A stretch of 64,000 nt of DNA from Veillonella intestinalis (lineage in GTDB: Bacteria; Bacillota; Negativicutes; Veillonellales; Veillonellaceae): assembly GCF_943193155.1 (NCBI RefSeq), contig NZ_CALPDB010000006.1:124001-188000 (forward strand), read 5' to 3'. The translations under genes were made by a program, and so were the position numbers. Below, piece by piece: positions 6,345 through 49,766 of this stretch. The first letter of the stretch is position 1. Every line of letters begins with the position of its first letter. Below the pieces are notes generated by a model. The model saw only the letters and a program-made list of their open reading frames with translations. It was not told the origin of the DNA and did not search any database.

Positions 6345-7322
6345 TTATTCGCTATAATTCACATCTTTATTGACACAAGTTTTTAAAGCCTTCCCTTGTA
6401 CCCCACGAATTAAATTATCTGCTGTAAGCATAGCCATATCACGCCGTGTACGATCTGTAAAAGAAGCAATATGTGGCACCACTAACACTTTACCAGTTTT
6501 CAGCAATGGATGATCTCCTGGTAGTGGTTCTGGATCTGTTACATCAAGAGCCGCATAATCAATTTCACCTTCATTAAGAGCCCATACTAAAGCATCAGTA
6601 TCAACAATTTTACCACGCCCCACATTAACAAATAAGGCATCTTTTTTCATCTTTTTAAATGCTTCTTTATCAATCATATGGTATGTTTCAGGAGTCAATG
6701 GAGTCACTACTAAAACCACATCACTTTCAGCATATAAAGCATCGCGGTCACGATATTCTACCATATATAACTTTTCATCCGGACGAGGTTTGCGATTATT
6801 ATAGATAACCGTCATCCCAAATGCACGGGCCCGCCTTGAAATGGAAACGCCAATATTACCCATGCCAATAATCCCTAATGTGGCGCGACTTAAATCTTTA
6901 CCCTTAATATTCGAAGGGCGCTGTTCCCACTGACCACTTTTTACAAAATCAGCATTTTCCATAACGCGACGACTCGCGGCCGCAACCAAAGTAAACGCTA
7001 ATTCTGCCACAGACTCCGTTAACACATCAGGCGTATTGCCATACGGAATATGGCGAGCTGACAAATCATCAATAACAACATTATCATAGCCCACTGAAGC
7101 CTGCGCAATTACCTTCAAATTAGGGGCATCCGCAATTAAATCAGCATCAACTTTTACATTATTAATACTCCAAAGACCATCTGCCTCTTTAAGCCACTCT
7201 TTTAACGTTTCCCGTGGCATAGGTGTCTTTTCAGTCCATTGTTTAATTGTTACATGTTCGCCTAAATAAGCTAATGCATCCTTACGCACTAAGCCTGGTA
7301 CTACTACAACAGGTTTACTCAT
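6345..7322 (-). CDS. D-isomer-specific 2-hydroxyacid dehydrogenase
   Basis: NAD(P)-dependent reductase of 2-oxoacids, most like the glyoxylate/hydroxypyruvate reductase group. A Rossmann motif GIIGMGNIG lies mid-protein, followed by the family signature NVGRGKIVDTDALVWAL with the catalytic arginine region, the E of DPEPLPGDHPLL and the catalytic histidine in VVPHIAS. Length is 325 residues, normal. AGGAGG lies 7 nt before the ATG. It is monocistronic by position, about 100 nt from glnS. The substrate cannot be read from sequence; D-lactate, glyoxylate or hydroxypyruvate are all possible. Confidence 0.85.
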   Translation of the reverse strand: MSKPVVVVPGLVRKDALAYLGEHVTIKQWTEKTPMPRETLKEWLKEADGLWSINNVKVDADLIADAPNLKVIAQASVGYDNVVIDDLSARHIPYGNTPDVLTESVAELAFTLVAAASRRVMENADFVKSGQWEQRPSNIKGKDLSRATLGIIGMGNIGVSISRRARAFGMTVIYNNRKPRPDEKLYMVEYRDRDALYAESDVVLVVTPLTPETYHMIDKEAFKKMKKDALFVNVGRGKIVDTDALVWALNEGEIDYAALDVTDPEPLPGDHPLLKTGKVLVVPHIASFTDRTRRDMAMLTADNLIRGVQGKALKTCVNKDVNYSE

Positions 7323-7780
7323 ACTATCAACCTCCTAGTAATCAATCTATCCATTAAATAATTACTGTATACTATAAACTACAATTACAAACTATCTTCC
7401 TTCTTTTCATTATATACAATTTGAGCCATTAGATAAAATAAAAACATTGAAAATTTCTGATATTTTAAACTTTTATTATTGCGAATGATTTTTACAACTC
7501 ATATTTACTCTAAATATATCGTTAACGCTCATGTTTTCACTCATATTTCCACTCACACCTTATTAAATTACTTTATCAATTCATCGATATATGATATAGT
7601 TAAACATATAAATGAATCCAATCAGTTAGGGCTTATTAAAGCTCAATTTTAGAAACCATACTGATTATTTGTATATTTAATTTTTTATATGTTTGTATAT
7701 GTATTATTACGTTCAATCCTTTATATGTTTCGGATGTATCAATTTGTTGTTTTCTGTTTATTTGAAAAGAGGAATTTCCC
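7323..7780. other. AT-rich divergent intergenic region
   Basis: 458 bp between the minus-strand dehydrogenase and the plus-strand 7781 gene. It must hold the promoters for both. I see no convincing ORF, hairpin or repeat. A TATGATATAGT stretch near 7590 is a possible -10 region. Confidence 0.4.
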
Positions 7781-8185
7781 ATGGCGTATATTGACTCATT
7801 AACTGACACGGAAGTAACACTACGTGACTTTAAAACAGTATTAAATCGACTCATGACCAATTACGATCCAAATCACCCCGTTACTATTACAATTGATGAA
7901 GCTGGTAAATCACGCACATTTTCATTAGTGCCTAAACGTACACGCCGTCGTTCTAACGGAGAAGCTTTCACCATTAAGGAAATCCCTTTTGAAACACTGG
8001 AAGCACCTAAAGAGCCTGGCACCTATATTGCCGTCGACACCTTTAATATTGCCGAAAATACACCAATCCCATTCGTCTATGGTCTTTATGTAGACTTTGA
8101 TGGGGTACGAGATTTACGCTTTTTTAACGATCGTGAAAGTTGTGAAAAATGGCTCAACAAAAAAATTAAACTGCTTGAAAAATAA
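7781..8185 (+). CDS. Hypothetical protein, 134 aa
   Basis: I do not recognise this protein. It is soluble, starts MAYIDSLTDTEVTLRDFKTVL, has a basic stretch KRTRRRS near residue 65 and ends in a lysine-rich helix. AAGAGGAA precedes the ATG at good spacing. It lies 17 nt upstream of the FAH-family gene, so the two are almost certainly co-transcribed, suggesting a linked but unknown role. The codon pattern is like the neighbours. Confidence 0.72.
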   Translation: MAYIDSLTDTEVTLRDFKTVLNRLMTNYDPNHPVTITIDEAGKSRTFSLVPKRTRRRSNGEAFTIKEIPFETLEAPKEPGTYIAVDTFNIAENTPIPFVYGLYVDFDGVRDLRFFNDRESCEKWLNKKIKLLEK

Positions 8186-8202
8186 TCCATTCAGGAGGTC
8201 CT

Positions 8203-9135
8203 ATGAAAATAGCTACATTTATATCCCCTAGCGGAGTTCGCCAGTGGGGCGTTATTGACGAAGAACATCAAACTATTTTAGGTAGCGCTGATTTAGAAGA
8301 TGCCTACTTCTCCTATTTACCAGAAACCATTGAAGATTTAATCAATTTAGGGAGTGAGGGGGTTTTAATATTAGCCACGGCTTTAGAAAAACATCGTGAA
8401 ACCCCTATTGCTGTGCCTTATAATCTATCTGAAGTTGTATTAGAAGCCCCTTTCAGACCTCACCGCAATATTTTCTGTGTTGGTAAAAATTATCGTGAAC
8501 ACATTGCAGAATTTGATAAAACTGGTGGCGAACCAGAGCATCCTATTTTCTTTACTAAACTACCGAATACAATAACACCACCAAATGGTGTCATTCCACT
8601 ACATCCGCAAGCTACGTCTGAAGTCGATTACGAAGGCGAACTAGCTATTATTATAGGAAAGCGTGGCACCAATATAACCGAAGACGAAGTGAATGATTAT
8701 ATCTTCGGTTATACCATTATCAATGATGTAACAGCCCGCGATTTGCAACGCCGTCATTCCCAATGGTTCTTAGGTAAAAGCCTTGATGGATTCTGCCCTA
8801 TGGGACCTGCTATTTTAATCAATGATAAACAACCTAAAGACTTTGAAATTCGCACCTATGTAAATAGCGAACTTCGCCAGTCTGGCACGACAGAAGATCT
8901 AATCTTCTCCATTCCAACCTTAATCAGTACTTTAAGTCGTGGCCTTACATTAGAACCGGGCGATATTATCGCTACTGGCACACCTTCTGGTGTGGGCGTT
9001 GGCTTTAATCCACCACGCTTCCTTCAAGAAGATGATGTAGTATCCATTACCATCCCTGGTATCGGCACTTTGACTAACACCGTACAACCAGAAGCACCAA
9101 AATTAGAATACGAAGAGTACGAAGAAGAATATTAA
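8203..9135 (+). CDS. Fumarylacetoacetate hydrolase (FAH) family protein
   Basis: Cytoplasmic metal-dependent hydrolase, isomerase or decarboxylase of 2-oxo-type acids. The FAH core is plain: FCVGKNYREHIAEF, the metal-binding EVDYEGELAIIIGKRG, FGYTIINDVTARDLQ and the C-terminal LEPGDIIATGTPSGVGVGF. Length is 310 residues with a short N-terminal cap, like the YcgM/HpcE-type members. The tail is unusually acidic (many EY/EE residues). AGGAGG lies 5 nt from the ATG. The real substrate is unknown; oxaloacetate decarboxylase or fumarylpyruvate hydrolase activity is common in this family. Confidence 0.87.
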   Translation: MKIATFISPSGVRQWGVIDEEHQTILGSADLEDAYFSYLPETIEDLINLGSEGVLILATALEKHRETPIAVPYNLSEVVLEAPFRPHRNIFCVGKNYREHIAEFDKTGGEPEHPIFFTKLPNTITPPNGVIPLHPQATSEVDYEGELAIIIGKRGTNITEDEVNDYIFGYTIINDVTARDLQRRHSQWFLGKSLDGFCPMGPAILINDKQPKDFEIRTYVNSELRQSGTTEDLIFSIPTLISTLSRGLTLEPGDIIATGTPSGVGVGFNPPRFLQEDDVVSITIPGIGTLTNTVQPEAPKLEYEEYEEEY

Positions 9136-9140
9136 AATAT

Positions 9141-9193
9141 AGACCGTTCCCTATTTTTGCTTCCTACGAGTCAAGCTCTGAAGGAGAAAGCGA
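9141..9193 (+). repeat. Terminator-like repeat, degenerate copy A
   Basis: Left arm GACCGTTCCCTATTT followed by the conserved loop beginning CTACGAGTCAAGCTCTGAAG. The right arm is lost. Sister copies lie at 9254-9326, 11427-11497 and 11521-11597. Confidence 0.75.
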
Positions 9194-9253
9194 CATAAAA
9201 CGATAGGCACTCTACTTCTGATTTCCACAAATTATACGTTAAGTAGACTAATT

Positions 9254-9326
9254 AAAAGCCCGTTCCTTATTCTTGCTCGCTACGAGTCAAGCTCTGAAGG
9301 TCGCTTCAAATAAGGAACGGGCTTTT
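9254..9326 (+). terminator. Terminator-like repeat, intact copy B
   Basis: Perfect 18-bp inverted arms (AAAAGCCCGTTCCTTATT at 9254-9271 and its complement at 9309-9326) enclose about 37 nt that include the conserved loop. A T-rich tail on the plus strand makes it the terminator of the FAH gene. It can also act on the minus strand after the 9445 gene. Confidence 0.85.
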
Positions 9327-9444
9327 TATATACCGCGAACAATAGAATAATAGACAATGCATTACCCTAATGCGCATATTGTATTTTATGTACTAAGATC
9401 GTTTTATGTACTAAAAAAGAATAATATAAAAATTACTATTTAAT

Positions 9445-11031
9445 TTACAAGTCTTTCAATACAACCCATGTACCAGCCTTGGTAGAGCCGGCTCGTTCAA
9501 TAACGCCTTTCGCTTTTAAATTGGCAATATTATAGCGTACACCGGCCGCGGTAATGCTCCCTAAGGTATCCGCAATTTGAACGGCTGTAATTTGAGGATT
9601 TGATTTCATTAAATGTAATATCTCATCAACCACTGAAGATGTCTTTTTACGAGACATCTCTTTTTTTATAGGAATTGCTAATTTTTCATTCACTGTAGGC
9701 GTATGGCGTTTCACCTTTTTATATGCATATGCAATCTCTTCTAAAAACTCTGACTGGATACGCATTATCACATTAGTATAATTATCAACATCATTGTCTG
9801 GTAAAAAAAGAAGTTCTGGTGAACCATTATTTAACAACGCATCCTTGGCCCGCCGAATACCTGAACCATAAGACTCAATTAAATTCAATGAATAAAACAT
9901 ATCTTTAATTTGAGGGTTCACATATTGTCGTTTATCAAAGCGTCTACTCGTATTTAATGTTTCAATCGTGACCGGTGGCAAAGGTCGATTATGGTTAACA
10001 ATCGAAATACAATCTTGGTACACATAAATACCTACATATTCAGGCGTATCATACTCTTTATGTAATATTGCATTAGTAGCTAGTTCTTCAAATGCAATTA
10101 AAGGGTAATTATAAATAACTTCATGCTCAATTTTATCATCTGTACGAATCGTATACGAAGTCATTACCATGTCTTGAAAATAACGACTCAACTGTTGTGC
10201 TTGAATCCAAATAGGACCGTCAAAACGTTTAGCTTCCATCCGATCGGTTCCCTTAATTTCCCTAATAACTTCAACATGCGCATTAGGAATAAATTGATTA
10301 GGACGATTAGCAAACATCAATACAGCAAAATTTTTAGCCCGATAGCCACCATATTCACTTTCACTAATTAATCCCATACTCTTAGCCATATCTAATTTAG
10401 ATAAATTACGAATATCTTCTTTGGCACCAGTCTGAACCAAATACTCTTTCATATATTCGTAATTTAAATCATCTAACGTAGCCGTTTCATTAAGATTAGA
10501 ACTGAAAGAAAAGTTCGCAAACTTTTTCAAAAGTTCAAACTCTTCAGTAAAATTAGGTAATTTACTGTCCCTCTGTATTCTAATATATCGCCCTGACTTA
10601 AGCTTAATTGCTGAACTACGCTCTGCCTTTTCACTAGTCTGATATGGTCCATTAGAGCCTGGCTCAATAGCAATAATTAAATAATTCGCATCATCAAGCC
10701 TATCTTGAATCAAATGATACGTAATCTTGGGGTGAATATGAGCTAATAACGATTTCAAATCATTCTCGGTGCTTTCTAGCAAAGACTCCTTAATGCCACA
10801 AATAGGCCGTTTAGGAATTGCTTTTTCCCCACTTGAAATATCATTTACTTCCTCCACGCCAATAAAAATTAACCCAATTTCATTATTCATATAATTATTA
10901 GCAAAAGCACAAGCCGTTTTTAAAATTTTATCCTTAAATTGCGCCGACTTTTTATATTCAATATAACTACTCTCTACACTCCGATTCGTTAAAATATCAT
11001 ATGCCATTCGCTTAATATCGGATATTTGCAC
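9445..11031 (-). CDS. Schlafen/AlbA-type ATP-binding regulator with C-terminal winged helix
   Basis: The N-terminal AlbA_2 domain (ESSYIEYKKSAQFKDKI, then CAFANN and GLIFIGVEE) is a nucleic-acid-binding module. A central segment, FEELATNAILHKEY followed by ISIVNHNRPLPP, matches the HATPase-like region of the so-called RecG-related family. The last 65 residues form a winged helix (AVQIADTLGSITAAGVRYNI). The frame is open from a TTG at 11049, but the GGGAGGG ribosome site lies inside that extension, so GTG at 11031 is the likely start (528 aa). Family members are usually labelled transcriptional regulators or appear in mobile and defence contexts. The gene stands alone between repeat pairs with an array of direct repeats upstream. 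Confidence 0.82.
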   Translation of the reverse strand: MQISDIKRMAYDILTNRSVESSYIEYKKSAQFKDKILKTACAFANNYMNNEIGLIFIGVEEVNDISSGEKAIPKRPICGIKESLLESTENDLKSLLAHIHPKITYHLIQDRLDDANYLIIAIEPGSNGPYQTSEKAERSSAIKLKSGRYIRIQRDSKLPNFTEEFELLKKFANFSFSSNLNETATLDDLNYEYMKEYLVQTGAKEDIRNLSKLDMAKSMGLISESEYGGYRAKNFAVLMFANRPNQFIPNAHVEVIREIKGTDRMEAKRFDGPIWIQAQQLSRYFQDMVMTSYTIRTDDKIEHEVIYNYPLIAFEELATNAILHKEYDTPEYVGIYVYQDCISIVNHNRPLPPVTIETLNTSRRFDKRQYVNPQIKDMFYSLNLIESYGSGIRRAKDALLNNGSPELLFLPDNDVDNYTNVIMRIQSEFLEEIAYAYKKVKRHTPTVNEKLAIPIKKEMSRKKTSSVVDEILHLMKSNPQITAVQIADTLGSITAAGVRYNIANLKAKGVIERAGSTKAGTWVVLKDL

Positions 11032-11111
11032 GAGTGTCCCTCCCTTCAAACTAATTTTACTAATTTAAGTCATTTTCAGTAATACTTAAATTTATTTATC
11101 AGTTTCGACAC

Positions 11112-11380
11112 TTTCTTTACTAGTACAAATACATTTCTTTACTAGAAAACAAATCCTCTTTTATTTATTCTATAAAAGAAATATAAAAAAATCAATCCTA
11201 AATATGAAATAACACACTCCCTGCAAACCCTTAAAAATATCCGTAAAACCCTATATTTCATTATTGATAAATACATTTCTTTACTAGTTACAAACTAACT
11301 TCTTTACTAGTTATAAATCATTTTCTTTGCTAGTATTGATTCAATTTCTTTATTAGTATCCTATTAATGTCTTTATTATT
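11112..11380 (-). repeat. Iteron-like direct repeats upstream of the AlbA-type gene
   Basis: Seven copies of a 13-bp word, TTTCTTTACTAGT on the plus strand (ACTAGTAAAGAAA on the minus), begin at 11112, 11134, 11276, 11299, 11322, 11345 and 11368. The last five are spaced exactly 23 bp and the first two 22 bp. Copies 6 and 7 are degenerate (TTTCTTTATTAGT, TGTCTTTATTATT). Such same-face spacing suggests cooperative binding by a dimeric HTH protein, possibly the adjacent gene product. The rest of 11032-11426 is AT-rich with no gene. Confidence 0.82.
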
Positions 11381-11426
11381 TTTAAACTTATTAAATATAA
11401 ATCAGCCTTCTCCTATCTCGACAAAA

Positions 11427-11497
11427 AAAGACCGTTCCCTATTTGAAGCGACCTTCAGAGCTTGACTCGTAGAAATCAAGAATAGAGAGCAGCCTTT
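11427..11497 (-). repeat. Terminator-like repeat, degenerate copy C
   Basis: Left arm GACCGTTCCCTATTT plus the conserved loop (GAAGCGACCTTCAGAGCTTG on the plus strand). The right arm has drifted to AATAGAGAGCAGCCTTTT. It lies tandem to copy D, 30 bp away. Confidence 0.75.
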
Positions 11498-11520
11498 TAT
11501 CATCTTCTCCCACCCTCGAA

Positions 11521-11597
11521 AAAAAAGACCGTTCCCTATTTGAAGCGACCTTCAGAGCTTGACTCGTAGGAAGCAAAAATAGGGAACGGTCTTTTTT
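11521..11597 (-). terminator. Terminator-like repeat, intact copy D (after gnd)
   Basis: 21-bp perfect inverted arms at 11521-11541 and 11577-11597 around the conserved loop, ending in a six-T run on the minus strand. It begins 3 bp past the gnd stop and is the gnd terminator. Confidence 0.87.
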
Positions 11598-11599
11598 AT

Positions 11600-13015
11600 T
11601 TAATTATCCCACTCCGTATGGAAAATCCCTTCTTTGTCTACACGCTCATATGTATGAGCACCAAAGAAGTCACGTTGTGCTTGAATCATGTTAGCTGGCA
11701 AGCTTTCACGACGATAGCTGTCATAGTAATCTAAAGAGGCGGAGAACGCTGGTGTAGGAATACCAAAACGTTTTGCCTCAATGATTGCTTCACGCCATTT
11801 TGCTTGATGTTTTTCAATCGCTTCCATGAAGAATGGATCTAGCAACAAGTTATTCAACTGTGGATTGCGTTCAAAAGCTTTCTTAATGTCTTCTAAGAAT
11901 ACGGCACGAATAATGCAACCACCCCGCCATAGAAGCGCCATGTCACCAAAGTTAATATTCCAATTATATTCCTTTGCCGCCGCTTTAATCAACGCAAAAC
12001 CTTGCGCATAGGAGCAAATTTTAGAAGCATATAAAGCGGAATGAATAGCATCGATAAAAGCTTTCTTATCACCTTTATATTCGCCTTCTGGCCCTTTAAG
12101 CTGTTTAGCCGCTTCTACACGTTCTGATTTATACGCGGACATACCACGAGCAAATACAGCTTCTGCAATAGTTGGAATTGGCACGCCCAATTCAAGACCT
12201 TCTTGACTTGTCCATTTACCAGTCCCTTTTTGGCCTGCTTTATCCAAAATTAATTCCAATAAAGGTTTACCAATTTCTTTATCGCTCACTTTTAAGATTT
12301 TAGAAGTAATTTCGATTAAATACGAATCTAATAGTCCTTTATTCCATTCAGCGAACACATCACCCATTTCATCATCGCTCATGTGAAGCAATTCTTTCAT
12401 CATGAAATAAGCTTCAGAAATAAGCTGCATATCACCGTATTCAATACCATTATGTACCATTTTTACATAGTGACCTGCCCCATCGTCACCTACATAGCTA
12501 CAGCAAGGACCATCTGCTACTTGTGCTGCAATAGCGGTAAAAATAGGAGCCACTTCTTTATACGATGCTTCATTGCCACCTGGCATCAAGCTAGGACCAT
12601 TTAACGCCCCTTCTTCACCACCAGATACACCTACGCCCAAGAAGCGGAACCCTTTCGCTTCTAATTCTTTGCTACGACGGCGCGTATCGCTAAAATGAGA
12701 GTTACCTCCATCAATCAAGATATCTCCTTTATCAAGATATGGTAAAAAGGCCTCAATCATATCATCTACAGGCTGACCAGCTTTTACTAAGAACATAATT
12801 TTACGAGGCTTCACTAACATGTTCACTAATTCCTCAGGACTATGGGCACCCCCGATAGTGCCTTCATGACCAAATTTTGCCACAAATTCATCTGTCTTCT
12901 GTGGCGTACGATTATATACAGCAATGCTGAAACCTTTATGAGCCACATTACGAGCCAAGTTCTGTCCCATAACAGCCAAGCCAACTAAACCAAATTCATA
13001 TGTTTTGTTTTCCAT
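11600..13015 (-). CDS. gnd: 6-phosphogluconate dehydrogenase, decarboxylating
   Basis: Oxidises 6-phosphogluconate to ribulose-5-phosphate and CO2 with NAD(P)+ in the oxidative pentose phosphate pathway. The N-terminal Rossmann fold reads GLVGLAVMGQNLARNVAHKG; the signature ILIDGGNSHFSDT and the catalytic KMVHNGIEYGDMQL follow. At 471 residues it is the long homodimeric type. The frame extends 11 codons upstream, but GAGGAG lies 8 nt before the ATG at 13015. The first 20 nt overlap the 3' end of the OLD-family gene, implying coupling or late gene fusion of two transcription units. Confidence 0.95.
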   Translation of the reverse strand: MENKTYEFGLVGLAVMGQNLARNVAHKGFSIAVYNRTPQKTDEFVAKFGHEGTIGGAHSPEELVNMLVKPRKIMFLVKAGQPVDDMIEAFLPYLDKGDILIDGGNSHFSDTRRRSKELEAKGFRFLGVGVSGGEEGALNGPSLMPGGNEASYKEVAPIFTAIAAQVADGPCCSYVGDDGAGHYVKMVHNGIEYGDMQLISEAYFMMKELLHMSDDEMGDVFAEWNKGLLDSYLIEITSKILKVSDKEIGKPLLELILDKAGQKGTGKWTSQEGLELGVPIPTIAEAVFARGMSAYKSERVEAAKQLKGPEGEYKGDKKAFIDAIHSALYASKICSYAQGFALIKAAAKEYNWNINFGDMALLWRGGCIIRAVFLEDIKKAFERNPQLNNLLLDPFFMEAIEKHQAKWREAIIEAKRFGIPTPAFSASLDYYDSYRRESLPANMIQAQRDFFGAHTYERVDKEGIFHTEWDN

Positions 13016-14921
13016 ATTTCGTCTCCTCTTCCACAGCAAGCCACGCATCCTGTTGTTGCGCCAATTGCTGTGCTTTTTTTATAACTTTTACAAAGGCTGG
13101 CGGAATATCTTCCCGTTCCTTTATATTATACGCAATACATTTACCTATAGTAATACCTTTTTGAAAAAAAAGCCAGCTAAAATAATAAATTTCTAATAAA
13201 TGAAGCTCTCGATTAGGAATAGAACTCAATTTTCGTTCCTGAAACGACCGATTCACTAGCCCTTGAAGAGATTCATTTTGAGATTTTGCATATTTTACTA
13301 GCTTATCTACTCCTTGTGTAATGGCCTTCTTACTGACTAACGAAGAACCACCTTCAAGATTGATGACCATGCGCACAATATCATCTAAAATAACACGGCG
13401 ATTACGCCTAATCAAATGATTAACTAAATCAAACTCAAAACAAATCGTATCCGTAAAATACACTTGCTTTTTTGCTGCTTTTGCTTCGGTACGCACATCT
13501 CGATCATAAAGGGCAATGACAGGAATATCAAAGCGATTGAAAAGTTCAACCAAACGACTAATCGAGCCTTGACCACGTGCATTAATAAGGCCAATGCCAT
13601 AGAAGTCAAAAGGAATGCCTAAAGTTTTAGCAAATTGTCTAAAACTACTGTACTCCGTCTCCCCTTCTACAATCATTACGCAACGTGTATACAGAGCTTC
13701 TTTCACTGCTGAAAAATAAGCAATTAAATGCTCCTCCGCCTCTGAGGAAACCTCAAAAGTAACACCACAAGCAATTTTAACCGAACCAGACGGTTGGCGG
13801 TAAAAACGAATAATTTGCCGATAATCATCGGCGAGAACTTCTGCGGAATGGGTGACAATAAAAAGCTGTCCTAATAGACCATCCACACCAAACACATCTT
13901 TTAAAATTCGCAAAAAGCCAATATTTTCATTAGCTAAAATCTCTTTGAAATAATCTACCATGGCCCGCTGCATCAAGGGATTTAAATGAGCCTCCACTTC
14001 ATCAAGACTCACTATCAGCGGCAAATAACGCTTTCCTTTTTTCATAATCACGTGGGATTCAAACTTACCCCCTTCTACTAGGGCAAAGATTTGCTTCACA
14101 ACGCGAAGCACTACCATCGTAATTAAACGCAACGCATCAGGCGTATAAAATCCTGCATATACACCTGAAGTAATGCCTGCCTTCAACGCCTTTTTATCCG
14201 TCATAGAGCCCCTGGCAAGTAATGGCCATTGTGTCAGCTGTGCTAACACAATAATCATATAATTCGGCAAATGAGGCATAACCATCTGAAATTGGCGAAT
14301 ACGCAACGCTATACGAGACATGGATTTAGGCGTACTACCATTTTCCTTAATCAATACAGTCTCTAATGCATGGCCTAAACGGTCACGAAGGGCTTCATAG
14401 GACTCAGCAACTACAGTAGAGACCTTCGTATTCGTCTGCTTAAAAGCGTCTACCCCTTTTGCATCCTTATCGGCCTCGCCAGACGTCAACTCAGTGAATG
14501 TATCAAATTTATATAAGCCAATGTCACGAAGCGCTAAATACGGAATATACCGAAGCACTCGCAACGGTACTTGGCGCCGTTTAGCTACCGCTAAGACCTC
14601 ATATAACTGAGGTTTAGCCACAACAGATACTTGCTCCCACTCAAGCAAAATGCGCCCCTCATTGACAGCCCCTACAAAACGCTTAGGTAGCGTTTCATGG
14701 GGATCGACCGTCAATGTTAGACGCACTTTCACTGGTTTAGTCACATCAAAGAAATCAGACGCAGCCAACGCTTGGCCTGACGTAATAAGCGTAATGAGGG
14801 CTAACAAATTAGACTTCCCGATAGCATTTTCACCAATCAAATAATTACATTGTTCATGAAAAACCAACTGCATATGATTCAAATTGCGAAAATTTTCAAT
14901 CTCTAAGGCGGCTAAATACAT
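12996..14921 (-). CDS. OLD-family ATP-dependent nuclease (ATPase + TOPRIM)
   Basis: Two-domain protein of 641 residues. The N-terminal SMC/ABC-like ATPase has Walker A GENAIGKS at residues 30-37, a Walker B/D-loop region VSLDEVEAHLNPLMQR and an H-loop IVTHSAEVLADD. The C-terminal TOPRIM domain opens CVMIVEGETEYSSF and has the acidic pair in ALYDRDV, the metal site of OLD nucleases. Known relatives include P2 Old and GajA and act in phage exclusion or repair. No UvrD/GajB-like helicase gene is adjacent, so it resembles a stand-alone class 1 member. I set the start at ATG 14921 (AGGTG 6 nt upstream) over the TTG at 14939. Confidence 0.83.
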   Translation of the reverse strand: MYLAALEIENFRNLNHMQLVFHEQCNYLIGENAIGKSNLLALITLITSGQALAASDFFDVTKPVKVRLTLTVDPHETLPKRFVGAVNEGRILLEWEQVSVVAKPQLYEVLAVAKRRQVPLRVLRYIPYLALRDIGLYKFDTFTELTSGEADKDAKGVDAFKQTNTKVSTVVAESYEALRDRLGHALETVLIKENGSTPKSMSRIALRIRQFQMVMPHLPNYMIIVLAQLTQWPLLARGSMTDKKALKAGITSGVYAGFYTPDALRLITMVVLRVVKQIFALVEGGKFESHVIMKKGKRYLPLIVSLDEVEAHLNPLMQRAMVDYFKEILANENIGFLRILKDVFGVDGLLGQLFIVTHSAEVLADDYRQIIRFYRQPSGSVKIACGVTFEVSSEAEEHLIAYFSAVKEALYTRCVMIVEGETEYSSFRQFAKTLGIPFDFYGIGLINARGQGSISRLVELFNRFDIPVIALYDRDVRTEAKAAKKQVYFTDTICFEFDLVNHLIRRNRRVILDDIVRMVINLEGGSSLVSKKAITQGVDKLVKYAKSQNESLQGLVNRSFQERKLSSIPNRELHLLEIYYFSWLFFQKGITIGKCIAYNIKEREDIPPAFVKVIKKAQQLAQQQDAWLAVEEETKYGKQNI

Positions 14922-14973
14922 GCTAGCACCTACTTTCAAATAAATGAATACGTTATATCCCTACTGCATTAAC

Positions 14974-15831
14974 TCAACGCTGCGCACTGTGCTGTTCTTT
15001 TAAACGAGCAATCATAACAGACGCTACAAACATGAGTAAACCGGCGCAAACCGTAAGCCATGACAAGGTTTCACCAAAGATAAGAAAGCCCCACATAGCA
15101 TTAAAGAATACGCCAATATATTGTAAAAACTGGGCTACCACAGCATTGGTCGCTACAAAGGCTCCCGTTAAGAAAAACTGGGCAAAGACAGAAATACCGC
15201 CAATAATAGCAATAATCCCCCATTGACGTGCATCAGGCCATACAAAGTTTGGCCACATCAAAGCGCCCCCTACAATCATTGTGGTCACCAAGAAATAAAA
15301 CATAATCTCATAATTACTATGATGCCCAACCTGGCTAATTTTACGAATTGTCGTATATGCTGCTGCGGCAAAGGCTGCCCCGCCTATAGCATATAAAGAA
15401 TACCAATGAAACTCACTAAAGGACCAAGGCTTAATCATAATCATAACAGCCACAAAAATCAAAATTAGCCATTTGCCCGCCCCTTGTGGAATGGATTCGC
15501 GCAATACAAAGGTACTAAAAATAAACACAAAAATACCAGATAATTGGAATAAAATGGACGCATCCGCTAAATTCATATAGGCTAAGGCGATAAAATTCAT
15601 CAACGTACCAACGCCACCAAAAATACCACGAATGGTCAACATACCTCTATTTTCGGTGGAAAAGGCAATGCCCTTAGCCCACATATATCCTAATACAGCC
15701 ACAGTGCCAATGAGTCCACGGAAAAACGTAATTTCCGCAGCCGGCATGGCTTGACCTAACATTTTAACAAATAAATTCATTACACTAAATGCTAACGCCG
15801 ATGCGATAGCATAGAAAAAGGCTTTTCTCAC
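14974..15831 (-). CDS. DMT-superfamily (EamA) transporter
   Basis: Inner-membrane protein of 285 residues with about ten hydrophobic helices and two EamA repeats. Typical features are ASALAFSVMNLFVKML at the N-terminus, EITFFRGLIGTVAVLGY in helix 2 and the C-terminal LQYIGVFFNAMWGFLIFGE. It probably exports a metabolite such as an amino acid; the substrate is unknown. It starts at GTG with an AGAAG site. It lies 31 nt after thrC, so co-transcription with threonine synthesis is possible and a threonine/homoserine export role is a guess only. Confidence 0.85.
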   Translation of the reverse strand: MRKAFFYAIASALAFSVMNLFVKMLGQAMPAAEITFFRGLIGTVAVLGYMWAKGIAFSTENRGMLTIRGIFGGVGTLMNFIALAYMNLADASILFQLSGIFVFIFSTFVLRESIPQGAGKWLILIFVAVMIMIKPWSFSEFHWYSLYAIGGAAFAAAAYTTIRKISQVGHHSNYEIMFYFLVTTMIVGGALMWPNFVWPDARQWGIIAIIGGISVFAQFFLTGAFVATNAVVAQFLQYIGVFFNAMWGFLIFGETLSWLTVCAGLLMFVASVMIARLKEQHSAQR

Positions 15832-15862
15832 GCAGTCACTTCTTTCTAAATCATGTCCCTAC

Positions 15863-17362
15863 TTATTTACCAAAGGTATCTACAAAACTTAAAATTTCCT
15901 TGCCCATCAACTCTTTGTCGATAACCTGAGTAAAACGAAGCTCTTTATGCTGTAATTCCGCTAATTCCTTAGGAAATGCTACACCCGTAACTGCACTAAT
16001 ATGCTCTAAACTTTCATATGGTGTACCACCTGGTTGAATTTCCAAAGCTTCACAAATTGGCGTTGGGAATTTAAACGGATGGGCGGTGGCTGCAATAACA
16101 GTATGACGGCTACCATCTTCCGGATGGGCCTGCAATTCCTTCATATATGCACCCATAGCTACTGCCGTATGAGGATCTAATACATATCCATACGAATTAT
16201 ATACCTGCGCAATAACAGCCTTTGTTTCTTCATCAGATACAAACTGACCACTGAAATCACGCTGTACACGACTTAACTCTTCCTCACTAACAGATAACTT
16301 TCCAGTCGCTTTCAAATCTTTCATGCGTGTATTAGTAAGTTCATAATCCTCACCACTTACATAATAAATAAAACGTTCAAAATTAGAGCTTTCTAAAATA
16401 TCCATAGAAGGAGAAATCGTCGTATAGAAATCACGATTCATATCATATGTACCAGTTTTAAAGAAATCAGTAAGCACATTATTGCGATTGGAGGCACAAA
16501 TTAACTTGCCAATAGGTACACCCATTTTCTTCGCATAATAAGCTGCTAAAATATTACCAAAGTTGCCGGTTGGCACTACCACATTAAATGCTTCATCACG
16601 ATGAATGGCCCCTTGGTTTACAAGCTCAGCATAGGCTGCCACATAATATACTACCTGTGGTGCTAACCGACCAATGTTTATGGAGTTAGCACTTGAAAAG
16701 CGTACCCCTTTTGCAGCTACCTTATCCGCCATCTCTTTATCTACAAATAAACGTTTTAAAAACTGTTGTGCATCGTCAAAATTACCACGAATAGCGGTTA
16801 CATTCACATTGTCGCCCGCTTGCTTTTGCATCTGCTCCTGTTGCATAGGACTAACGCCATCAGTAGGGTAAAAAATCTGAATATGTGTGCCCGCTACATC
16901 TTTAAAACCTTCCAAAGCGGCTTTGCCCGTATCACCAGACGTAGCTGTTAAAATAAGCACTTCATCTGTTTCCCCTTCAGCCTCTTTGGCCGCAACCAAC
17001 AAATAAGGAAATAAAGATAATGCCATATCTTTAAAGGCTTGCGTCCGCCCATGAAATAATTCGAGTACAGATAACCGCTCTAACACGGAATGAAGCGGTG
17101 CAATATCAGCAGTGCTAAAATTAGCCTTACTGTAGGCCGCATTAATCATTTCCTTTAACGCAGCCTCACTAAATGTAGGGAAAAAGTGGGCTAATACAAT
17201 ATAAGCAATATCCTGATACGATTTGTCTGCTAGCATATCATAGGTAATCGTTCGTTCTGGAAATTTGGCTGGCACATAGAGGCCCCCATCACTGGCCAAG
17301 CCATGTAATAATGCATACATCTCATTTACTGTTTCTTCACTTCTCGTACTTCTGTATTTCAT
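15863..17362 (-). CDS. thrC: Threonine synthase
   Basis: PLP enzyme converting O-phosphohomoserine to threonine and phosphate. The PLP lysine is K111 in LFHGRTQAFKDMALSLF. The phosphate-binding TATSGDTGKAALEGFK follows, and VVPTGNFGNILAAYYAKKMG is present further on. Length is 499 residues, the long fold-type II form that begins YRSTRSEETVNEMYALLHGL. The ribosome site is weak (GTAGAGAG). It is probably the first gene of a thrC-DMT transporter unit. Confidence 0.94.
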   Translation of the reverse strand: MKYRSTRSEETVNEMYALLHGLASDGGLYVPAKFPERTITYDMLADKSYQDIAYIVLAHFFPTFSEAALKEMINAAYSKANFSTADIAPLHSVLERLSVLELFHGRTQAFKDMALSLFPYLLVAAKEAEGETDEVLILTATSGDTGKAALEGFKDVAGTHIQIFYPTDGVSPMQQEQMQKQAGDNVNVTAIRGNFDDAQQFLKRLFVDKEMADKVAAKGVRFSSANSINIGRLAPQVVYYVAAYAELVNQGAIHRDEAFNVVVPTGNFGNILAAYYAKKMGVPIGKLICASNRNNVLTDFFKTGTYDMNRDFYTTISPSMDILESSNFERFIYYVSGEDYELTNTRMKDLKATGKLSVSEEELSRVQRDFSGQFVSDEETKAVIAQVYNSYGYVLDPHTAVAMGAYMKELQAHPEDGSRHTVIAATAHPFKFPTPICEALEIQPGGTPYESLEHISAVTGVAFPKELAELQHKELRFTQVIDKELMGKEILSFVDTFGK

Positions 17363-25098: not shown

Positions 25099-25294
25099 TT
25101 TCAAAATACGCATTCTGGCTGCATTAATTTCATTTTAACTTCATTTTAATTAAGTGTTTTTCAAGATTTTAATATATTTTTTATTCCATCAATTCTGCTA
25201 ATTAAATTTTTCCATAACTGAACTTATTAACTCAATGCAAAATCCCTCTAATTCAGTCATAAGAAAAATCGATTTAATCTATATTTCACAACCT

Positions 25295-25338
25295 CATATA
25301 AATTTCATATAAATTTCATATAAATTTTATATGAATTT
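25295..25338 (-). repeat. 11-bp tandem AT repeats
   Basis: CATATAAATTT occurs three times head to tail (25295, 25306, 25317), then a variant TATATGAATTT. The period equals one helical turn, suggesting curved DNA about 200 bp upstream of the first adhesin promoter. The remainder of 25099-25541 is AT-rich with nothing else seen. Confidence 0.6.
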
Positions 25339-41115: not shown

Positions 41116-41332
41116 CGATATAGGTAACTTAAACATGTTTACTTGTTAATTTTACAAAAAAATCTGACATGACCTAAATTCTAAGTCATGCCAGATTTAA
41201 TATAGTGCAGCGTATGTAATTACACATAATGCAACGTATTTAATTACACATAATGTAGTGCTTCACTATTTTACTATTCATACCCTTACTTTTTAATCAA
41301 ACTTTATGCTAATTAATTATTCTTTATGCTAA

Positions 41333-49010: not shown

Positions 49011-49766
49011 ATGGATTTTACTTTATTTCCTTATTTTCTAATCTCTTCCATTCTTCTGACCTTGGCACCAGGGCCTGACAATTTATATTTGCTAGCTAAA
49101 AGTATAGCTGATGGTGCTAAAGCTGGCATTATCTTAGCAGGCGGTCTTGCATCGGGCATTATATTTCATACAACATTAGTCATTCTAGGTGTAGCTGCCT
49201 TAGTAAAAAGTTCACCTATCGCCTTTTCTCTGTTAAAATATGTAGGCGCGGCTTATTTATTTTATCTTGCTTGGGGTGCTTTTACAGCAAACGTATCTGA
49301 AACCACCCCAACAGAAATAGAAACAACTGAAGCGACTACAGCAGAAATAGCAACAACTGAAACAGCTACCGCAGAAATAGCAACAACTGAAACGGCTACA
49401 GCAACCCAAAATACAACAGAACTTACTACACACAAAAAGGAAACTGCAGCAATAGAGCGGTCTGAAACGGGATTTGCTATTTACCGTAAGGGTTTGATTA
49501 TGAACATCTTAAATCCAAAGGTCTTATTATTTTTCTTAGCCTTTTTACCACAATTTGTAAGCCCTAATAGTGAAAATCCTAGTTTATCCATTGCTTTTTT
49601 AGGTGCCACCTTTAGTTTACAAGCCTTTGTCCTGTTCAGCCTTATCGCCCTATGTGCCGGCAAGTTACGCGGCTTTTTACATCAAGGCCCTAGTTCACAA
49701 CGCCTATTAAATCGCATACAAGGTATCGTCTTATTATGCATTGGTGGCTTATTGCTATTCTTTTAA
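49011..49766 (+). CDS. LysE/RhtB-family exporter with repetitive loop insert
   Basis: Amino-acid efflux protein, 251 residues against about 205-210 for the family. The N-terminus has the hallmark LTLAPGPDNLYLLAKSIADG, and the C-terminal half has FRKGLIMNILNPK-like KGLIMNILNPKVLLFFLAF. The extra 45 residues lie between the third and fourth hydrophobic segments (about residues 93-150). They are a Thr/Glu/Ala-rich hydrophilic loop built from a 10-residue repeat AEIATTETAT. AAAGGAG precedes the ATG. The substrate is unknown; homoserine/threonine or lysine are typical. Confidence 0.88.
   Translation: MDFTLFPYFLISSILLTLAPGPDNLYLLAKSIADGAKAGIILAGGLASGIIFHTTLVILGVAALVKSSPIAFSLLKYVGAAYLFYLAWGAFTANVSETTPTEIETTEATTAEIATTETATAEIATTETATATQNTTELTTHKKETAAIERSETGFAIYRKGLIMNILNPKVLLFFLAFLPQFVSPNSENPSLSIAFLGATFSLQAFVLFSLIALCAGKLRGFLHQGPSSQRLLNRIQGIVLLCIGGLLLFF
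49311..49400 (+). repeat. 30-bp in-frame tandem repeat in the exporter gene
   Basis: Units start at 49311 (degenerate), 49341 and 49371; the last two differ by two bases. The core begins GCAGAAATAGCAACAACTGA. Being 30 bp, copy-number change keeps the frame. Confidence 0.85.

Follow-up and report, generated by a model that had tools for sequence, protein, structure and literature searches.

A phased array of 13-bp words before a Schlafen-type gene in Veillonella intestinalis, a putative operator whose word recurs in the linker-coding DNA of a relative

In front of a Schlafen-type gene of Veillonella intestinalis, a short word is repeated at an almost constant distance in intergenic DNA, and the question raised by this locus is what reads these repeats and to what effect. 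In the window (i.e., the whole stretch of 64,000 nucleotides that was analysed), seven same-strand copies of TTTCTTTACTAGT or variants of it lie in 11112-11380, and in the sense of the adjacent gene the word reads ACTAGTAAAGAAA. The copies and the sites between them are listed below, the first coordinate of each copy being the start of the word on the plus strand.

11112-11124, minus strand: word copy 1, ACTAGTAAAGAAA, in the gene-proximal pair
11134-11146, minus strand: word copy 2, TCTAGTAAAGAAA, 22 bp from copy 1
11167-11195, minus strand: weak candidate promoter, TTGATT-17-TAGAAT, between the two copy groups
11276-11288, minus strand: word copy 3, ACTAGTAAAGAAA, first of the 23-bp array
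11299-11311, minus strand: word copy 4, ACTAGTAAAGAAG
11322-11334, minus strand: word copy 5, ACTAGCAAAGAAA, a variant also found in the linker of the relative L140
11345-11357, minus strand: word copy 6, ACTAATAAAGAAA
11368-11380, minus strand: word copy 7, degenerate, in phase, AATAATAAAGACA in gene sense

The two copies of the first pair start 22 bp apart, each step within the five-copy group measures 23 bp, and Tandem Repeats Finder calls an array at 11267-11357 with a period of 23 and 4.0 copies; word search and program together confirm the seven copies, the 22/23-bp phasing, and the single orientation that had been predicted from the letters. With up to two mismatches allowed, the word has 11 matches in the window against 4.0 expected, a number that none of 100 shuffles reaches. 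Copy 7, TGTCTTTATTATT, has three mismatches to the array word, and therefore such a search lists only six of the seven copies. The mean pairwise identity is 85% for the 13-bp words and 40% for the 10-bp spacers, with 33% predicted from composition, so that conserved words, unconserved spacers, and constant spacing, as looked for in an operator array, are all found. Among phased runs in the window (at least four copies at periods of 15-39, counting 13-mers up to two mismatches from the first copy and leaving out low-complexity words), the array is the sole instance, and none occurred in 30 first-order Markov sequences of 64 kb under the same criteria. In the whole genome, 18 matches were found with at most one mismatch, six in the array and 12 elsewhere, and the reversed-pattern control gave 10. 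Since these 12 scattered single matches are close to the control, a genome-wide regulon was rejected, and there is no sign of a second array elsewhere in the genome. A CRISPR array was rejected for its wrong geometry, as the words are 13 bp and the spacers 10 bp long and the words differ between copies.

Promoter-like sites around the array occur at chance level in number. A hydrophobic ORF of 44 codons (11142-11276, minus strand), which begins at the edge of copy 3 and stops inside copy 2, has no evident ribosome site and is probably due to chance. Further Tandem Repeats Finder calls in the window are at 49297-49403 (30-bp units), 41202-41255 (24-bp units), and 25294-25338 (11-bp units).

The gene next to the array is present as a single copy in its genome, and its product has the following parts.

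9445-11031, minus strand: gene for a Schlafen AlbA_2 - HATPase_c_4 - winged helix protein of 528 amino acids, GTG start after GGGAGGG
10561-10974, minus strand: SLFN_AlbA_2 domain (PF04326, 2.7e-17)
9796-10035, minus strand: HATPase_c_4 (PF13749, 1.1e-9)
9637-9717, minus strand: interdomain linker, residues 439-465, pLDDT below 50, without 4-residue repeats
9448-9633, minus strand: C-terminal winged helix (predicted fold), residues 467-528, the proposed reader of the word
9511-9549, minus strand: predicted helix 495-507, beginning AAGVRYNIANL, taken as the recognition helix

The GTG at 11031 is the start given in the original prediction, which had also read the AlbA_2, ATPase-like, and winged-helix domains rightly: the SLFN_AlbA_2 and HATPase_c_4 profiles score 63.8 and 38.5 bits, above their curated cut-offs of 25.3 and 26, and the C-terminal winged helix appears in the predicted fold, with many wHTH matches at Z 7-8. 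Among many others, it resembles the centromere-binding protein AspA (Z 8.1, tied with others). The AlbA_2 part matches the nucleic-acid-handling folds of Schlafen and SAMD9 proteins in structure, and its E20 and E25, which we take to resemble the Schlafen catalytic acids, are invariant in 18 aligned sequences. The nearest solved structure is DIP2311 from Corynebacterium diphtheriae (PDB 3lmm; Foldseek E 6.8e-18), which aligns over residues 1-428 (VIA Z 18.8) at 13-16% identity, while the whole arrangement cannot be superposed (rmsd 9.8 or more).

Gene and array sit between a convergent FAH-type gene and gnd (names assigned by eye), and the same interval is filled differently in congeners. In G001, 93 bp separate the FAH-type gene from gnd, an interval that holds one copy of a repeat element and no gene; in G006, a truncated AlbA_2 gene, coding for its last 138 residues, is fused to an array remnant and accompanied by AbiEi and AbiEii genes; and in G004, an AbiEi gene stands alone. 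The slot states in the genus (window 9136-11600; L084, L083, L094) are therefore empty, AlbA_2 with array, truncated AlbA_2 with an AbiE pair, and AbiEi alone, and these differing contents make the interval a variable slot for accessory genes. The repeat element is terminator-like and also flanks the window gene.

9254-9327, no strand: left-hand copy of the repeat element, in the interval between the convergent genes
11424-11597, no strand: right-hand pair of copies, with perfect inverted repeats of 21 nt

This inverted repeat element of about 75 bp has several dispersed copies in the genus, including other contigs of the genomes G000 and G006. As it occurs at the empty site and elsewhere in genomes, it is no proof of mobility by itself, and the proposed movable module between repeat pairs is weakly founded; what the locus shows is a variable gene slot between two convergent genes, and mobility in any further sense is not supported. 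Nor did the term iteron gain support in its replication sense: among the ORFs of 6345-17362, neither replication initiator genes nor conjugation genes were seen by eye, and the neighbours read as metabolic, transporter, and OLD/AAA-type ATPase genes. The ORF 12996-14939, by eye an OLD/AAA-type ATPase, adjoins gnd and is conserved in congeners.

The array is rare among related genomes. Phased word pairs (23 bp apart, at most two mismatches) occur in two of 380 genomes of the class, both times beside this gene at the same locus, and the reversed control pattern gives 11 hits in 10 other genomes of the set. In the second genome, G006, two intact words each match the window at 12/13 positions, their spacers at 6/10 and 7/10, and a degenerate third word at 9/13. 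Close homologues of the gene are likewise few, with three in 380 class genomes (E 1e-60), one in 398 phylum genomes, which is the gene's own (E 1e-100), and six in 249 genomes of another order. Phage and plasmid records hold four homologues each, and two close ones are on plasmid-labelled records. Viral contigs added a single degraded homologue, which turned up three times on the same contig, and they contain no array pair, no TTKE/TTQE pair, and no NVRE repeat.

In 84,980 species genomes, a homologue scan found 36 relatives, several of which directly follow a topB-like gene (by eye), as in conjugative elements. L138, L142, and L143 duplicate L009, L040, and L014, and L018, for which upstream DNA is absent, was dropped from the phased-repeat and matrix scans. 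Phased repeats (at least three copies within 500 bp upstream) precede none of the 35 remaining relatives, and a scan of the same 35 regions with the array matrix stayed at chance level (median p 0.52). The original prediction had asked whether a phased array always precedes homologues and had named homologues lacking repeats as counting against it; taken alone, this is literally what the upstream regions show, the exceptions being the remnant in G006 and, in another layout, the Fusobacterium relative L103. Outside the genus, clear upstream copies are found only in Fusobacterium. Relatives whose linkers are free of repeats (L035, L038, L039, L041, and L042) have no upstream array either. Sixteen aligned relatives with several winged-helix types share one common leader with a TATAAT box, so control in those relatives need not use the winged helix. 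The possibility that this conserved leader is a single-copy array word was rejected on the alignment and on the chance-level matrix scan.

A different trace of the word lies within the genes. In many relatives, the linker before the winged helix consists of 4-residue repeats (TTKE, TTQE, TTTK/TTMK, TSKE, and others), which at the DNA level are 12-bp repeats; the proteins of the window and of G006 have none. Distant relatives (L028, L026, L033, L025, and L031) carry other 12-bp linker words, encoding NVRE, IAQE, NGTE, MTKE, and EKTT, which suggests that repeat linkers are a general feature of the wider family. Between the TTKE word ACTACCAAAGAAA and the array word, 11/13 positions agree, a level reached by 0.2% of composition-matched shuffles. 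From this near-match came the hypothesis that the winged helix reads the word of its own linker, which predates the finding of L140 and of the L103 palindrome.

In L140, from another order, the linker TSKETSKETSKE is encoded by ACTAGCAAAGAA, ACTAGTAAAGAA, and ACTAGCAAAGAA, so that its DNA contains the exact window array words ACTAGTAAAGAAA and ACTAGCAAAGAAA, variant included. An exact search of 42 complete homologue genes, both strands included, finds these two words only in the L140 linker. Array copy 4, ACTAGTAAAGAAG, occurs once, in L042, near the gene end and outside any linker, at chance level. When the columns of the array matrix were permuted, the L140 linker score was reached in 18 of 20,000 trials over 36 linkers, and the best score of the array matrix was 13.1 in the gene parts before the linker vs. 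18.3 in this 36-linker test, from which L027, L036, L037, L041-L043 (L042 thus among those omitted) and the last 120 nt of each gene were left out. In L139-L141, L143, and L144, word matches with up to two mismatches lie only inside the linker, and L142 has a single upstream match in what reads as topB coding sequence.

In the Fusobacterium relative L103, which is flanked by a PDC-M12A/B candidate defence pair and a PglX-like gene (L103 951-2823 and 4535-7519), the linker word is found in the gene and also upstream of it, as a 19-nt perfect inverted repeat that ends 143 bp before the gene start, partly overlaps the end of the upstream ORF, and has two more word variants beside it, giving copies on both strands. 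An upstream linker word was rejected as a general feature of relatives: when each of 35 genes was compared with 10 random partners, only L103 was far out, with a score of 23, and the linkers of two other genes match the L103 upstream DNA better than its own does (26 and 24 vs. 23). L016, L020, and L024 exceed the cross controls by 2, via strings unlike the repeat word. In a search for tandem linker-word pairs in 28 genomes or records, all hits beyond the linkers and the Fusobacterium palindrome had three mismatches, and the control had five hits. Eight of these 3-mismatch hits are two recurring sequences, presumably shared coding stretches.

The codons of the linker are exceptionally uniform. 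Of the 83 units counted in 25 genes, 82 have ACT as the first Thr codon, whereas ACT makes up 88 of the 386 Thr codons outside the linker of these genes; for the second Thr, 79 of 80 units use ACC or ACT, and these two codons together account for 157 of the 386. The 25 genes are partly near-identical, and the count leaves out L027, L036, L037, L041, and L042 (cut or misread frames) as well as genes lacking two adjacent T[T/S]xK/E units. By lineage, all 17 have ACT as the first Thr codon of the linker. At 14 conserved Thr columns outside the linker, the most frequent codon over the 17 lineages already makes up 0.40-0.82, and so shared ancestry explains part of this uniformity, of which the linker is the extreme. 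At four-fold codon third positions outside the linker, agreement is 0.30-0.64 between most lineages. Linker DNA may also be exchanged by recombination. An unrelated, by eye membrane-like protein of a viral contig, L145, has TSKE repeats at about 150-210 with the same DNA word, and hence the word can arise by coding alone.

The type of word goes with the recognition helix, a lead from small numbers, since the comparison comprises two lineages in a group defined after the fact. Eleven sequences have the window's one-residue insertion before this helix. In the sequences with C-type words, helix position 2 is D or E and position 9 is R (TADGVRYHIRNL); L140 (SVSGVRYHISKL) and the window with G006 (TAAGVRYNIANL), which have G-type words, have neither an acidic position 2 nor a basic position 9, and among the 11 only these two lineages lack both residues. 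L140 is not the closest to the window in this domain, as its winged helix is 55% identical and others reach 62%. One genome, G818, holds two relatives, L140 (TSKE) and L144 (TTQE), with unlike winged-helix types.

Taken together, we propose that the array is probably an operator for the product of the adjacent gene itself, bound by the winged helix and most likely acting in repression. The C-terminal winged helix would recognise ACTAG[T/C]AAAGAAA, and several molecules would bind side by side, spaced slightly beyond two helical turns. At 10.5 bp per turn, both the 22-23 bp of the array and the 12 bp of the linker words would advance slightly over whole turns, an over-rotation that would be compatible with monomers or dimers lined up in a gently winding row. 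Upstream of the presumed weak TTGATT-17-TAGAAT promoter there would be five copies, and downstream of it, in the leader, two; the bound protein most likely represses its own gene, i.e., negative autoregulation of a potentially toxic Schlafen-type protein. That the protein binds its own array was part of the original prediction; it stands as the best-supported reading, with indirect support from the linker word of L140 and the upstream word of L103, and it fell short in the upstream regions of the homologues.

Other explanations have to be weighed against this self-binding. A functionless chance tandem repeat, for which only the AT-richness of intergenic DNA speaks, is hardly credible given how much more alike the words are than the spacers, the shuffles, and the partial retention of the array in a congener. 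It is very unlikely that the array is a maintenance site (iteron or centromere-like) left by a mobile element and no operator; the topB-like genes before several relatives and the likeness of the winged helix to AspA would agree with such an origin, but the gene is single in its genome and stands between two chromosomal-type genes, and by eye the ORFs of 6345-17362 include no conjugation gene.

More serious, while still unlikely, is that another host regulator binds the array and controls the accessory gene, the likeness to linker DNA being coincidence. Seven sites before a single gene would suit any regulator, and the upstream array is absent from the 35 relatives, but the genome shows no sign of a second array, and the exact L140 match is rarely reached by permutation. 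We consider control at the RNA level, with the AlbA_2 domain reading the word in mRNA (here within the 5' leader, and in relatives within the linker-coding part), to be improbable. It would account for the sense orientation of all seven array copies and of the relatives' linker copies and for the nucleic-acid-handling folds matched by the AlbA_2 part. However, five copies would be untranscribed if the candidate promoter is right, the Fusobacterium copies are on both strands, and the linker word goes with the winged-helix type and differs among relatives whose N-terminal parts are about equally close to that of the window (74.7-76.9%). Binding of the array by the winged helix of the adjacent gene's product thus remains our preferred reading.

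Autoregulation of this kind has parallels among defence genes. At least 1017 taxa have bacterial proteins that combine a Schlafen RNase, a minimal histidine kinase, and a wHTH and are encoded next to BREX loci (PMC12839542); the portion of this paper available to us cites a preprint on an anti-phage function of bacterial Schlafens and describes no operator array or linker-encoded word. Such proteins have the same domain order as the window protein, AlbA_2/Schlafen, GHKL-type ATPase, and winged helix (PMC12839542). No BREX gene was noticed beside the window gene, for which an RNase or anti-phage role is putative, but its Fusobacterium relative L103 does adjoin the PglX-like gene. Proteins of this sort would be well served by tight self-repression. 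RptR represses a defence island and, as proposed for the window protein, controls its own promoter by way of several direct repeats; it is a small single-domain four-helix protein with three 9-bp repeats, two of which overlap the -10 box (PMC12255303). The window differs in having a large multidomain protein and seven words of 13 bp at a spacing of 22-23 bp. The antitoxin AbiEi is the product of an accessory gene autoregulated at repeats, as proposed here, and is described in PMC7319586 and PMC3985639 as binding inverted repeats of its own operon. In the window no AbiE gene adjoins the array, while in congeners AbiE genes occupy the same FAH-type/gnd slot.

The match between array and linker DNA also permits a bolder reading, which we regard as possible but somewhat doubtful: the operator might be self-encoding, in that the linker-coding DNA would consist of the winged helix's own binding words, with the word changing along with the helix, and the window's lineage would have lost the linker array and moved the word to a phased array at the promoter. 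Units of 12 bp, or four codons, would then serve at once as a peptide hinge and as an autoregulatory site. Binding sites inside the gene of their own binder are known from parS in spo0J/parB and from RepA_N plasmid origins in repA. The portions available of PMC8129170 and PMC8263062 do not confirm these two cases. They share with the proposed linker words a cis site in the coding sequence of its own binder, but serve partition or replication, whereas the linker repeats here have a 4-codon period and a word seemingly tied to the type of wHTH. Neither linker-encoded operators nor operators of this Schlafen-type family were among the top matches listed from the open-licence PMC literature.

For these widespread and poorly characterised Schlafen-like proteins of bacteria, the array would provide a concrete DNA target, and the variable 4-residue repeats of their linkers are perhaps binding sites in coding DNA and not mere spacers. 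If this is true, the target of a regulator could be read from its own gene, and operators and specificities would become predictable across the family.
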